NCBI GenBank assembly: GCA_016235865.1
Contig: JACRIK010000026.1
Location: 124,001 to 188,000, forward strand
DNA length: 64,000 bases
Direction: 5' to 3'
Origin: Planctomycetota bacterium
GTDB lineage: Bacteria; Planctomycetota; MHYJ01; JACQXL01
The notes under the pieces are model-generated. The model had not been told where the DNA came from. It saw only the letters and a list, made by a program, of their open reading frames with translations, and did no database searches. Every line of letters starts with the position of its first letter. The first letter of the stretch is position 1. Positions 17,344 through 63,635 of this stretch are shown here, one piece after another. Made by a program: the position numbers and the translations under genes.

Positions 17344-17480
17344 CAGTCCTTTTTGGGTCTTCCGAGGTGGCAAAAGCCACTTTTTAGGTGCCAATTGGGT
17401 CCTCTGAGGTGCCAATTGGGTCTTCCGAGGTGCCAATTGGGTCCTCGGAGGTGCCTATTGCCACCTCCGAGGTGGCTATA
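17344..17480. repeat. Tandem array of 21-bp units upstream of fdhA (array F)
   Basis: About six degenerate 21-bp units run between the fdhA start and the nuoF terminator. Units begin AGGTGCCAATTGGGTC and three carry the dyad CCAATTGG; outer units diverge to AGGTGG and GCCAC forms. The array lies where the fdhA promoter and leader would be. Confidence 0.85.
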
Positions 17481-29985: not shown

Positions 29986-30440
29986 TGTTAGACGTCTAAC
30001 ATTAAAGTTCTCTCTAATCCCGACAAAGACTGTCGGAATAAGAGCTCCTATGTAGCTATCTAGTTCTAAAAATGTGTGACGTCACACATTAAATAGGCAA
30101 TTAAGGGGGGTATATACAGGGATGTGAGGGTGGTATTATAGGGGGGTGTGGGGGAGGGAGGGGGGTAGTTACCCACACCTCCCCTAGTAGTGACCTACAC
30201 CTCCATCGGTAGTGGCCTACACCTCCACTGGTAGTGACCTACACCTCCATCGGCAGTGACCTACACCTCCACTGATTATTGCCTACCCCTCTATTGGTTA
30301 TTACCTACACATCTACCGGTTATTACCTATACATCTACCTGCCAATAGGGTCAAATGTGCGACGTCGCACATTTGTTAGACGTCTAACAATTAAAGCCCC
30401 TTAGGAATGTGTGACGTCACACAATTGTTGGACGTCCAAC
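29986..30440. repeat. Six perfect palindromes centred on GACGTC
   Basis: Palindromes lie at 29986-30001 (16 bp), 30071-30090 (20 bp), 30352-30375 (24 bp), 30373-30390 (18 bp), 30408-30423 (16 bp) and 30427-30440 (14 bp). They alternate between the GTTAGACGTCTAAC and GTGTGACGTCACAC types. The last four form two pairs whose centres are exactly 18 bp apart, and the two groups bracket array B. All six arms are perfect, which chance does not explain. They look like operator or nucleoprotein sites. Confidence 0.85.
30166..30341. repeat. Tandem array, 8 units of 22 bp (array B)
   Basis: Eight units of exactly 22 bp occur, consensus start TAGTGACCTACACCTCC, drifting to TTATTACCTACACATC at the right end. 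GTAG-N4-CTAC dyads occur across unit borders. The sequence is unrelated to array A although the period is identical. Confidence 0.9.
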
Positions 30441-46639: not shown

Positions 46640-46894
46640 GATAGACAGGCCAGTATCGGAGTTAGGCAGCCGTGTATAGGAGTTGGACAGGCTTGCACAG
46701 GAGTTGGACAGGCCTGTATAGGAGTAAGACGGGCTTGTCTAAGAGTTAGACGGGCTTGAATAGGAGCTGGACAGGTCTGTATAGGAGTTGGACAGACCTG
46801 TCTAAGAGTTAGACGGGCTTGCCTAAGAGTTAGACGGGCTTGCATAAGAGCTGGACGGGCTTGTCTAAGAGTTAGACAAGTCCGTATCAGAGCT
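46640..46894. repeat. Tandem array, 11 units of 21 bp (array C)
   Basis: Eleven full units run from 46658 to 46888, with partial units at both ends. Units read RGAGTTRGACRGGCYTG plus four variable bases. The dyad ACAGGCCTGT is perfect in unit 3 and imperfect elsewhere. The remaining gap (46895-47131) holds a 20-bp palindrome and several hairpins. Confidence 0.9.
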
Positions 46895-54031: not shown

Positions 54032-54295
54032 CTGCGCCTTGTTCTGGCATCGCCTGCTACTTATTCACGACTATACTAATACTTGTTCGGGCTTAGACTG
54101 CTATTTGCAGGCGGCTAATTTGTAGATTACACTTGGCTCGCCTGCTATTTGCAGGCGGCTAAACTGTAGATTACACTCGGCTAAACTGCTATTTGCAAGC
54201 GGCTAAACTGTAGATTACACTTGGCTCGCCTGCTATTTGCAGGTGGCTGGACTGTAGACTACACTCGGCTAAACTGCTATCTACACCGAATCACC
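54032..54295. repeat. Tandem array, 12 units of 22 bp with alternating types (array D)
   Basis: Twelve 22-bp units occur; from 54098 two types alternate, CTGCTATTTGCAGGCGG and CTGTAGATTACACTCGG, both ending in GCTAAA or GCTCGC, giving a 44-bp higher-order period. Each type carries its own dyad (CTGC-N5-GCAG and TGTA-N3-TACA). The first three units are more diverged. Confidence 0.9.
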
Positions 54296-54438: not shown

Positions 54439-55809
54439 ATGAAACAGGGTATATACAATCAACTCAAGGATATCATAGACCCCAAGCGGGTCTTTGATTC
54501 ACCCGAGGCGCGGATTGCCTCGTCCTACGACGCCTCGCGCAAACAGCATCTGCCTGATGTCATTGTCAATCCTATCAACACCAAGGAGATTTCGGAAGTG
54601 CTCAAGCTGGCCTATGCCAACGGAATCCCGGTCTATACCCGGGGCGCGGCGTCGTCGGTGACCGGCTCGGCTGTGCCGATTAAGGGAGGGATTGTTCTTG
54701 ATTCATCGCTGATGAACCGCATCATTGAGATAAATCCGATTAATCTGACGGCCACGGTTGAACCGGGCGTGATAGTGGCTGATTTCCAGACCGAGGTGGA
54801 GAAGCTTAATCTGTTCTATCCGCCTGACCCGGCCAGCGCCGAGTTCTGCACCCTGGGCGGCAATATCGCCACCGGCGCCGGCGGCTTGCGCTGTATCAAA
54901 TACGGCACCACCCGTGATTATGTCCTCGGACTTGAAGTTGTGTTAGCCGACGGACGGATTATCAATACCGGCAAGGGCACGTTAAAACGCGTTTCCGGCT
55001 ATGACCTGACCCGGCTGATGGTCGGCTCGGAAGGCACGCTGGGCGTATTTACCAGAATCAACCTGAAACTTATTCCCAGGCCACAGGCCCAGTCAACCAT
55101 TGCCGCTTTCTTTGCCGATTCTGAACAGGCAATCCGGTTCAGCATTGACCTGTTGAATAAAGGCATTCTGCCCCGGGCGCTGGAATATATGGACGCTACG
55201 TCCCTGAAATCAGTGGCAAAATACAAGCCGGAATTGCAGGTTCCGTCTGATGCCCAAGCCATGCTCCTGATTGAACTGGATGGTGCGCCCAATGATGTGG
55301 ACGAGCACACCGGCCAGGTCCGCAAACTCCTGCATGATGCCGGGCCGATTATGTCCAAGCGGGCCATCAGCGAAAAAGAGGCCGCCTATCTCTGGTCCAT
55401 CCGCAAGTCCCTCTCCGCGGCCCTGTTCTCCATCACCGCCCAGAAGGTCAGTGAGGATATCTGCGTGCCCCGAAGCGCGATATCCGATATTCTCAAGGTT
55501 ATTGCAGAGATAGAAGCGTCGTCCGGCATACCCATTGCCACCTTCGGGCATCTGGGTGATGGCAATTTCCACGTAAACTTTCTTATTTCATCCAAGGAAC
55601 ACGAGAATCAACTCCCGTCAGCGCTGAATCGATTATTCACTAGAACCATTGAATTAGACGGCACGCTCTCAGGCGAGCACGGTATCGGGCTGACCAAGGC
55701 CAAATATTTCCCGCTGGAATGGGGCCCGGATGAGATGTCCATATTCAAACAGGTAAAACAACTCTTTGACCCGAAGAATATCCTAAACCCGGGGAAGATA
55801 TTTGGTTAA
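54439..55809 (+). CDS. glcD: FAD-linked oxidase, glycolate oxidase subunit GlcD type
   Basis: The 456-residue FAD-binding subunit of a glycolate/lactate oxidase has FAD_binding_4 motifs PVYTRGAASSVTGSAVP and FCTLGGNIATGAGG near residues 70 and 138. The C-terminal GHLGDGNFHVNF and SGEHGIGLTKAKYF are typical of the GlcD/LldD-like family. It probably oxidises a 2-hydroxyacid and passes electrons to the Fe-S partner GlcF, which lies downstream beyond an unrelated lipoprotein gene. The substrate is inferred from the family. Confidence 0.92.
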   Translation: MKQGIYNQLKDIIDPKRVFDSPEARIASSYDASRKQHLPDVIVNPINTKEISEVLKLAYANGIPVYTRGAASSVTGSAVPIKGGIVLDSSLMNRIIEINPINLTATVEPGVIVADFQTEVEKLNLFYPPDPASAEFCTLGGNIATGAGGLRCIKYGTTRDYVLGLEVVLADGRIINTGKGTLKRVSGYDLTRLMVGSEGTLGVFTRINLKLIPRPQAQSTIAAFFADSEQAIRFSIDLLNKGILPRALEYMDATSLKSVAKYKPELQVPSDAQAMLLIELDGAPNDVDEHTGQVRKLLHDAGPIMSKRAISEKEAAYLWSIRKSLSAALFSITAQKVSEDICVPRSAISDILKVIAEIEASSGIPIATFGHLGDGNFHVNFLISSKEHENQLPSALNRLFTRTIELDGTLSGEHGIGLTKAKYFPLEWGPDEMSIFKQVKQLFDPKNILNPGKIFG

Positions 55810-55821
55810 AAGATAGCCACT

Positions 55822-55854
55822 GGCGCCGAAGCGCCATGGCGCCCTTATGGCGCC
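55822..55854. repeat. GC-rich palindromic element, intergenic copy
   Basis: This 33-bp element contains GGCGCC at both ends and GCGCCATGGCGC centrally. Its exact reverse complement (32 bp) lies inside glcF at 57476-57507. Confidence 0.85.
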
Positions 55855-57287: not shown

Positions 57288-57318
57288 CGGAGTTTACACT
57301 GAGCAGAGCGAATGTGTG
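57288..57318. repeat. Dispersed 31-bp repeat, copy 2, at the glcF start
   Basis: Same element as 31706-31736 with two differing bases. It runs up to the first possible glcF start codons, so the region that would hold a ribosome-binding site is made of repeat DNA. Confidence 0.7.
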
Positions 57319-57327
57319 GCAAATTTT

Positions 57328-58635
57328 ATGGATTTACAAAAAGAATTAGCCCGTTGCGCCAAGTGCGGGCAGTGCCGGTCGGTCTGTCCGGTCTTTCTGG
57401 CCTTGAAGGACGAGACCCTGGTGGCCCGGGGCCGGCTGGCGATTATTCAGGCAGGGCAGGCAGGCCAACAGATGAGCGCCATAAGGGCGCCATGGCGCTT
57501 CGGCGCCACCAACAGACCAACAGACCAATTCCGCAAGATACTTGACACCTGCTTAATGTGCCGCAGGTGCGAAGAGAACTGCCCGTCGTTGGTTGAGACA
57601 AGCGTAGTTTTTAAGTCCGAGCGCCAGAGAGTTACGGATGAAAAAGGACTGCCTTGGCTGTTGAGGTTGGGATTCAGGTGGGTCTTGCCCAATCGCTGGT
57701 TGTATAATAGCATGATGCGTCTGGCGTCTTTGGCCGGTTGGCTGTTTGGCCGCGGCGGTGCGCCGGTCCGCCACCTGCCGTTATATTTCGCCAATCTGTT
57801 CCCCGACGCTTTGGTCGGGACTCCGTTGCGACTTCGCCAGCGTATGCCGCGCTTGGCCAAGAAATCAGCATTACAACTTCGTCATTCGTCATTGGACATT
57901 AGTCATTCGCCCAAGGTATCTATCTTCCTCGGCTGCGCTGCCAACTACATCTATCCTGAGATAATAGAGGCGCTGACTTCGATTCTGGACCGGCTCAAGA
58001 TTCCCTACGTCATTCCTCAGGCTCAGGTCTGTTGCGGTATGCCGGCATTATTGTCCGGCGATGAGCAGTCCGCTAAACGCCTGATGAAAATGAATCAGGA
58101 AACATTTAAAACGGAAACTATTATAACCGTCTGTCCGACCTGCAACCGGATGCTCAGGGAAATGCGGAGTTCGGAATGGGGAATGGGGAATAAAATAGTT
58201 GATGCGGTGGAATTCCTTGAGACAGAATTAACTCAATTCCGCATTCCGCACTCGGCATTCCGCACTGCTTACCATACTCCTTGCCATTCCGCCGGCACCA
58301 AGGCGCCGGAGATTATCAAGGCATTCCTCAAGGCCAATACGGATTATCAGGAGATTGATGATATCTGTTGCGGCGGCGGGGGATTGTTCACATTCAAATA
58401 TCCGGAATTATCCGACCTGATTGGTCAGGCCAGGGTGGATTCACTGAGGGGTTCTCTAATCACCCAATCACCTAATCATCCAATCACCCAGCTTGTCACC
58501 AACTGCCCGGGTTGTATGATGCAACTGGAATATCTGTTGTCGTCAGGTAAGCATACCGTCAAGGTCCGTCACATCGTGAATCTGATTATGGACGCACATA
58601 AAACGGGTCGGCCCGCTCCACATACTCATAAGTAG
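57328..58635 (+). CDS. glcF: Glycolate oxidase iron-sulfur subunit with inserted repeats
   Basis: The 435-residue cytoplasmic Fe-S subunit accepts electrons from GlcD. Two [4Fe-4S] motifs, CAKCGQCRSVCP and CLMCRRCEENCP, are at the N-terminus, and two CCG domains follow (FLGCAANY, VCCGMPA, then YHTPCHS, ICCGGGG, NCPGCMMQ). All clusters look intact. Five low-complexity or palindromic segments are translated in frame: 57476-57507, 57802-57819, 57882-57908, 58161-58191 with 58235-58266, and 58455-58490. The ATG at 57328 is preferred over a GTG at 57316. The 3' end overlaps the convergent M28 gene by 50 bp. Confidence 0.9.
   Translation: MDLQKELARCAKCGQCRSVCPVFLALKDETLVARGRLAIIQAGQAGQQMSAIRAPWRFGATNRPTDQFRKILDTCLMCRRCEENCPSLVETSVVFKSERQRVTDEKGLPWLLRLGFRWVLPNRWLYNSMMRLASLAGWLFGRGGAPVRHLPLYFANLFPDALVGTPLRLRQRMPRLAKKSALQLRHSSLDISHSPKVSIFLGCAANYIYPEIIEALTSILDRLKIPYVIPQAQVCCGMPALLSGDEQSAKRLMKMNQETFKTETIITVCPTCNRMLREMRSSEWGMGNKIVDAVEFLETELTQFRIPHSAFRTAYHTPCHSAGTKAPEIIKAFLKANTDYQEIDDICCGGGGLFTFKYPELSDLIGQARVDSLRGSLITQSPNHPITQLVTNCPGCMMQLEYLLSSGKHTVKVRHIVNLIMDAHKTGRPAPHTHK
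57476..57507. repeat. GC-rich palindromic element, copy inside glcF
   Basis: Exact reverse complement of 55823-55854 and translated as part of the linker between the two N-terminal [4Fe-4S] motifs, where other GlcF proteins are shorter. Confidence 0.9.
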
Positions 58636-63013: not shown

Positions 63014-63153
63014 AATTGCCAGGGCGGGGGCGGGCATTAAACTTATACCTTATAACTTGTAACTTATAATTGCCCCGAAGGGGTTTGGGCCGGAATCTGC
63101 GATAGGGGGTCCGGATTACTAGTATTGTGTCCCCGGATTAATCCCGTAGAGGC

Positions 63154-63342
63154 GCACTTATGAGTTGTAGTGACGCACTTACGACCTGTAATGACGCACT
63201 TACGACCTGTAGTGACGCACTTACGACCTGTAATGACGCACTTACGACCTGTAGTGACGCACTTATGAGTTGTAATGACGCACTTACGACTTGCAAGTGC
63301 GCACTTATGACTTGTAGTGACGCACTTATAACCTGTGCGCTG
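63154..63342. repeat. Tandem array, 9 units of 21 bp (array E)
   Basis: Nine units with consensus start GCACTTACGACCTGTARTGAC (20 of the 21 positions well conserved) run head to tail. AGTG-ACG-CACT dyads span each unit border. Since 21 is divisible by three, open frames of a Cys/Asp/Ala/Leu heptad pattern arise on both strands; no start site or composition supports a gene. Confidence 0.9.
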
Positions 63343-63551: not shown

Positions 63552-63635
63552 ATGGCGTGTTTTCTGACTCAGTTGGCGTGCCAAATGACCTTGTTGGCGT
63601 GCCAAATAACCTTGTTGGCATGCCTAATGACCCGT
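63552..63635. repeat. Tandem array, 4 units of 21 bp (array G)
   Basis: Four units, consensus TTGGCGTGCCAAATGACC; units 2 and 3 carry the dyad TTGGC-GT-GCCAA. The first and last units are diverged. Confidence 0.8.

Follow-up and report, generated by a model that had tools for sequence, protein, structure and literature searches.

The glcF-like gene of a Planctomycetota bacterium was found to carry short repeats, all of them in frame, in the loops between its conserved domains, and the corresponding loops of four related species were found to be filled with other repeats. Tandem words and palindromes of this kind also occur in many other genes of the same genome. We consider it probable that such repeats arrive at the DNA level without regard to reading frame and that selection for frame and loop position follows. 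The words turn over within the loops between species. The window below is the whole 64,000-nt stretch of DNA that was analysed, and the genome it comes from is G000.

A glcF-like gene with repeats between its domains

The gene opens with an ATG at 57328 and runs for 435 codons to 58635 with no internal stop, and an alternative GTG start lies at 57316. Its product matched a 4Fe-4S dicluster domain and two CCG stretches in Pfam, and cysteines C10, C13, C16, C20 and C75, C78, C81, C85 were invariant in an alignment of 18 sequences. It therefore has the two [4Fe-4S] motifs and two CCG domains of the CCG/4Fe-4S subunits, and an earlier reading made from sequence only was right that both pairs are retained within one open frame. 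Because it scored 100.3 bits against NCBIfam PRK11274, below the curated cut-off of 333, we call the gene GlcF-like, a name given by its domains and its glcD-like neighbour. That neighbour lies 1.5 kb upstream; a palindrome copy and a further gene separate the two. At the opposite end, glcF shares its last 50 bp (window 58586-58635) with the tail of a convergent M28 peptidase gene, and GlcF extends ~10 residues past the C-terminal end of its closest relative.

The repeats are listed in Table 1. The in-frame palindrome, GTCGGG hairpin and tandem arrays that the sequence-only reading had described were all recovered, together with the ACCAACAG array that it had overlooked. Its two ATTCCGC-type runs also exist, with the qualification that they stand in opposite orientations, as GGAATGG and ATTCCGC. 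Local copying between these near-inverted arrays was considered and dropped, since two separate arrivals explain them equally well, with the ATTCCGC word at 17 sites in the genome. The TTTGGCCG array in linker B may be due to chance. Partial matches to the TCGGGACTCCG half of the hairpin recur in a 464-kb sample of the genome (eight matches listed, including the query itself). As a separate observation, the window holds seven tandem arrays with a period of 21-22 bp, or two helical turns, one of them just upstream of glcD.

Table 1. Genes and repeats in the window (positions are those of the window)
Feature	Position	Strand	Remark
glcD-like FAD-linked oxidase gene	54439..55809	+	No array within (TRF)
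Second window copy of the 32-bp palindrome	55822..55853	-	Intergenic, just after glcD
glcF-like gene	57328..58635	+	435 aa; two [4Fe-4S] motifs and two CCG (cysteine-rich) domains
32-bp dispersed GC-rich palindrome	57476..57507	+	Repeat common to exact copies is 57473-57508
8-bp tandem ACCAACAG x2.6, linker A	57508..57528	+	Absent from the list of the sequence-only reading
Weak 8-bp tandem TTTGGCCG x3 (75% matches), linker B	57729..57752	+	TRF score 34
CCCGAC/GTCGGG hairpin (CCCGACgctttgGTCGGG), linker B2	57802..57819	+	Within the 12-aa gain over the closest relative
7-bp tandem TTCGTCA x4.6, linker C	57878..57909	+	Length about as in the closest relative
7-bp tandem GGAATGG x2.7, linker D	58173..58191	+	Upstream (5') copies degenerate
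7-bp tandem ATTCCGC x4.1, linker E	58236..58264	+	Orientation inverted relative to the GGAATGG array
8-bp tandem AATCACCC x4.1, linker F	58456..58490	+	Net gain 7 aa
Tandem arrays of 21-22 bp	2157-2537, 17353-17474, 30104-30338, 46644-46894, 54097-54286, 63146-63336, 63572-63632		

An AlphaFold2 model of GlcF built on the 18-row alignment (pLDDT 83.4, pTM 0.86) placed the repeat segments (residues 49-67, 159-164, 184-194, 282-288, 303-313 and 377-388) between predicted helices and strands, with an overlap of a few residues at most at the ends. The repeat stretches were mostly of lower confidence, and the lowest internal block was 161-170, with a pLDDT of 50. M. smegmatis EtfD, LutA and HdrB were the closest solved folds to the model, and a PDB sequence search with GlcF matched no chain.

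The same linkers in related species

If the repeats had been inserted as proposed from the sequence, their segments were expected to appear as gaps in homologs. Against the closest relative (G001, 62% identity, with linker lengths counted by hand on the alignment), this was borne out for linker A, with the palindrome and ACCAACAG (+13 aa), linker B2, with the hairpin (+12 aa), and linker F, with AATCACCC (+7 aa). It was not borne out for the TTCGTCA, GGAATGG and ATTCCGC arrays, which occupy linkers whose length is about the same and whose sequence is not conserved (C, -1; D, 0; E, -1), and linker D is ~11 aa shorter here than in G006, whose glcF has no repeats. Since linkers C, D and E are no longer than in G001, insertion there must have been balanced by loss, or else the linkers were overwritten.

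GlcF was found in eight genomes of the order. The gene holds arrays in five of them and is without repeats in G006 and G008, and its frame is open in all eight aligned genomes, with no frame-broken copy. Four relatives in the order fill the corresponding linkers with other words or hairpins. G001 has AATGCGG in linker D, where the gene described here has GGAATGG, and AATCCCA in linker E; the alike words in linker D may represent an old shared arrival. The G002 protein, at 568 aa, has GTCTTGG, TTGCGAA and a hairpin in linker B and hairpins in C, D and E. Hairpins occupy linkers C and D of G003, with CCGTATC in E, while G005 carries GATTGCA in B, CAAACTCCAAACCC in C, AGGTTAC in D, CTTCG with a hairpin in E and a hairpin in F. 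The G004 gene, which is GC-rich, has hairpins only, three of the five within linkers. Linker E contains, depending on the genome, ATTCCGC, AATCCCA, a GGTCGCC hairpin, CCGTATC, or CTTCG with a hairpin, and linker D is occupied in all five array-bearing genomes.

All 15 non-redundant arrays fall inside seven inter-domain intervals that make up about a quarter of the protein; these intervals were drawn after the alignment had been seen, and no P value is attached to the count. The intervals leave out two further hairpins, of which G000 and G003 have one each. It was also observed that the C terminus of the G002 GlcF (L011) reads through GTCATTCTGAACTTGGTTCAGAATCTC, an inverted repeat that serves as the end of the protein.

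Repeat load beyond chance

The G000 sample comprised 464 kb, made up of the window and 20 further stretches of 20 kb each, with 391 called genes, and one order-4 Markov copy was used as background. At a TRF score of at least 38 and a period of 6-9, we found 44 arrays (43 after merging), compared with 1 in the Markov copy. An excess over chance of tandem arrays with units of 5-11 bp, as is characteristic of heptanucleotide repeats, is thus present in this genome. Eighteen arrays at this score are intragenic, with five in glcF and two in the next gene. Counted by unit length over the 464 kb, the 18 intragenic arrays with a unit of 7, 8, 14 or 16 bp affect 13 genes. When only periods not divisible by three and scores of at least 34 are counted, glcF holds 6 of 33 intragenic arrays (one of them weak) and the next gene 2; the Poisson P for glcF is 6e-10, or 2.4e-7 after multiplication by 391 genes, in a test that was run after the gene had been picked and with a home-made gene caller. 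The repeat load of glcF had been called extreme, and it does rank first of the 391 genes in this sample.

When genes were ranked by arrays plus hairpins per kb, glcF was 1/280 in G000, 1/221 in G005 and 1/64 in G002, and 10/58 in G001, 15/84 in G003 and 32/85 in G006, where the gene has none. These density ranks are rougher than the array counts, as hairpins with 7-bp stems have a sizeable chance background (shown for 8-bp stems), and the glcF contig was deliberately included in each relative's sample. Across G000, G001, G002, G003 and G005 together, 41/1029 genes had arrays at a score of at least 38, compared with 0/127 in G006 (Fisher P = 0.018) and 1/188 in 200 kb of E. coli K-12 (P = 0.015).

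Tandem words in other genes

The pattern is not special to glcF. That gene has the highest load in the sample, and identical words stand in frame within essential genes elsewhere in this genome. A whole-genome search for ATTCCGCATTCCGC with at most one mismatch gave 26 overlapping matches at 17 sites, with 0 for the reversed control, and the view taken from the 464-kb sample that ATTCCGC is private to glcF was therefore wrong. All 17 ATTCCGC tandem sites were read: 4 are outside called genes and 13 inside, all in frame, as judged with a gene caller that reports only in-frame cases as inside a gene and misses disrupted genes. Besides glcF, the hosts are LeuRS, ArgRS, GatB, Ddl, MnmE, GpsA, a Rho-like factor, histone deacetylase-like and dihydrolipoamide dehydrogenase-like enzymes, a sigma-54 regulator, a solute-binding protein and a radical SAM protein, the last with the word near its C terminus. 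Relative to solved homologs, the net gain at the word is 13 aa in GatB, ~9 in Ddl and ~6 in GpsA; for the histone deacetylase-like enzyme, the alignment is loose at this site.

Numbers for each word are small. TTCGTCA sites lie in genes in three of four cases, one of them a ROK kinase (L209) whose length at the word is about that of its solved homolog. The AATCACCC word gave 14 matches with two mismatches, compared with 8 for the reversed control, and no dispersed family is shown by that count. In-frame tandem words of 7 or 8 bp were seen in many genes of G000, G001, G002, G003 and G005; hosts of intragenic words also include topoisomerase I, aspartate semialdehyde dehydrogenase, inositol monophosphatase and, in G002 (L158) and G003 (L156), ValRS. 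In an alignment of ValRS from seven genomes of the order, the core has few gaps, and the WYC-CPPI loop and two others differ in their insert from genome to genome (the G004 row, a wrong-strand ORF, was ignored, and G008 is in two pieces). These ValRS loops, in G001 (L160) and G000 (L163) as well as the two genomes above, form the clearest second case of the pattern seen in glcF.

A universal vocabulary of words was also considered and rejected. The TTCGTCA doublet TTCGTCATTCGTCATT was present in 4/149 genomes of the phylum and its reversal likewise in 4/149, so the words are genome-specific. The reversed control word, TTACTGC, proved to be a multi-site tandem word in G054 and G062, and other lineages of the phylum thus have heptanucleotide words of their own. 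Heptamer classes common to pairs of genomes among six samples numbered 16, compared with 4 for reversed words, a result given little weight as the pairs are non-independent.

The dispersed palindrome

The palindrome was found in 34 copies in the whole genome with at most three mismatches, 20 of them exact, and the reversed control gave 0. Thirty-one copies were read, with 23 outside called genes and 8 within, two of these being doubtful (one near an N terminus and one in an ORF without a Pfam match). For a genome that is 86% coding, this genic share departs from random placement at P = 4e-14, and it differs from that of the ATTCCGC word at P = 0.001. The intragenic copies are read in four different combinations of frame and orientation, and their hosts include pantothenate kinase, DUF1015 and protein kinase genes. 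Two Y1_Tnp (PF01797) genes are present in the genome, at G000:C27:246341-246673 (L172) and G000:C33:268-600 (L173, near the end of contig C33). A search of the loci around both genes (L172, L173, L210, L211) found no palindrome core, and mobilisation of the palindrome by a RAYT is not supported.

Relation to known repeats

Heptanucleotide repeats and in-frame palindromes of the Rickettsia type are known, and glcF is an extreme case of such repeats. The words described here resemble the heptanucleotide repeats of bacteria (long simple sequence repeats) in being tandem 7-bp words that are dispersed, genome-specific and of no known generator. Such words include TAACTGA in Beggiatoaceae (PMC4679880) and GGGAATC in Xanthomonas and GGGGA(C/T)T in Nostoc (PMC4692102). 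Heptanucleotide repeats are described as mainly intergenic (68% in Anabaena) and under-represented in coding regions generally (PMC4692102), and coding repeats are said to favour 3n units (PMC4679880). In contrast, 13 of the 17 ATTCCGC sites are intragenic and in core enzymes, and the intragenic units are of 7, 8, 14 and 16 bp rather than mostly 3n. One array in G005, AGTTGTCAGTTATC, resembles the Beggiatoaceae word read in reverse.

In REP/RAYT systems, palindromes flank a Y1 transposase gene. The genome is like them in having dispersed palindromes and two Y1_Tnp genes, but differs in that the palindrome core is absent from both Y1_Tnp loci. Short tandemly repeated repetitive sequences (STRR) are repeats of cyanobacteria, and several heptanucleotide families per genome are a shared trait. 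Three heptanucleotides are mentioned for Calothrix (PMC4692102). Rickettsia palindromic elements are in-frame palindromes in metabolic genes (Ogata 2000, 2002, via PMC10969869; also PMC2694212), of ~150 bp and with a conserved peptide (PMC10969869). The palindrome here is likewise dispersed and inserted in frame in metabolic genes, with 8 of 31 copies in genes; however, it is 32-36 bp long, is read in four ways rather than as one conserved peptide, and has most of its copies outside genes. A search of the open-access literature, outside which most subscription journals lie, returned no report of heptanucleotide words in Planctomycetota core genes or of orthologous loops with different words.

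Origin and fate of the repeats

In the mechanism that we propose, short DNA repeats would keep entering protein-coding genes in a single family of uncultured Planctomycetota, together with one genus from a sister family. Two kinds of repeat would be involved. One consists of 7- or 8-bp words, present as 2.5-5 tandem copies, that vary from one site to another and partly recur within a genome; the other consists of short palindromes or hairpins with many dispersed copies. The process would act on DNA and be blind to reading frame, as suggested by the non-3n units and the varied phases and orientations. Selection would then purge copies that cause a frameshift or a stop or that hit the protein core, and surviving copies would build up in flexible loops between secondary structures. 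GlcF, in which ~seven loops connect two Fe-S motifs and two CCG domains, would hence come to hold the most repeats, and the word found in a given loop turns over between species. The words would most likely come from slippage that starts on a copied seed, or from short-patch copying.

With units of 7 and 8 bp that occur in every phase and in either orientation, the repeats cannot have originated through selection on the protein and must have been made on DNA. Every intragenic case that was read keeps the frame and has no stop, and the host genes are essential in other organisms; within the reach of a gene caller that leaves out broken genes, this points to selection acting after insertion. We infer that the inserts are translated, and that they are tolerated rather than useful.

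Replication slippage in place, whereby arrays grow from local chance seeds with no dispersal between sites, is possible but on the unlikely side. Most sites do have a word of their own, the units are imperfect, the listed intragenic units are mostly 7 or 8 bp, and polymerase slippage has been proposed for heptanucleotide repeats (Mrazek 2007, as cited in PMC4679880). However, the gains in GatB, Ddl and GpsA are not multiples of 7 bp, and ATTCCGC stands at 17 sites with its reversal at none, so that words spread or are favoured, and slippage in place is insufficient alone. Loss of mismatch repair was rejected as a cause because both MutS and MutL are present in G000; among seven genomes, MutL was found in all and MutS in six, the exception being G008, whose glcF is without arrays. 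Rather improbable, in our judgement, is an unrecorded process by which short tandem words enter coding DNA almost as often as random placement would predict, with in-frame survivors remodelling orthologous loops of core enzymes using new words in each species; the 13 of 17 intragenic ATTCCGC sites are compatible both with random placement in the 86% coding genome (P = 0.20) and with random placement minus only the frame-shifted two thirds (P = 0.31).

The repeats could instead be adaptive, tuning loop length, mRNA structure or a phase-variable expression of glcF. Such a role would fit the top density rank of glcF in three of six sampled genomes (G000, G005 and G002) and the near-inverted GGAATGG and ATTCCGC arrays, which could pair, but it appears very unlikely given that each species has different words, that unrelated core genes hold the same ones, that the glcF of G006 and G008 has none, and that changes of 7 or 8 bp break the frame while no aligned order genome has a frame-broken glcF. 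Decay of glcF, with the gene gathering junk, would account for a load that is the highest in the sample; with the frame open in every aligned order genome, the Fe-S cysteines invariant, each array in frame, and ValRS and other essential genes likewise affected, we regard it as highly improbable. There is hardly any chance that the arrays are themselves random or an assembly artefact: lone short arrays with a score of ~34 do occur by chance (the Markov copy yields 7 at a score of at least 34), but the excess at 38, the rates in G006 and E. coli, and the agreement across five separate assemblies all argue against it.

Arrival on DNA followed by selection, as proposed above, makes these genes an unusually clear natural experiment in which non-coding repeat DNA becomes protein sequence. 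From one species to the next, the same loop of an enzyme carries another repeat, and this is true of tRNA synthetases and GatB in addition to GlcF. The tolerance of core proteins to loop insertions, the speed at which repeats enter and the origin of heptanucleotide words can now be tested. Should words indeed be written at a near-random rate, the process would be a running source of new protein sequence.
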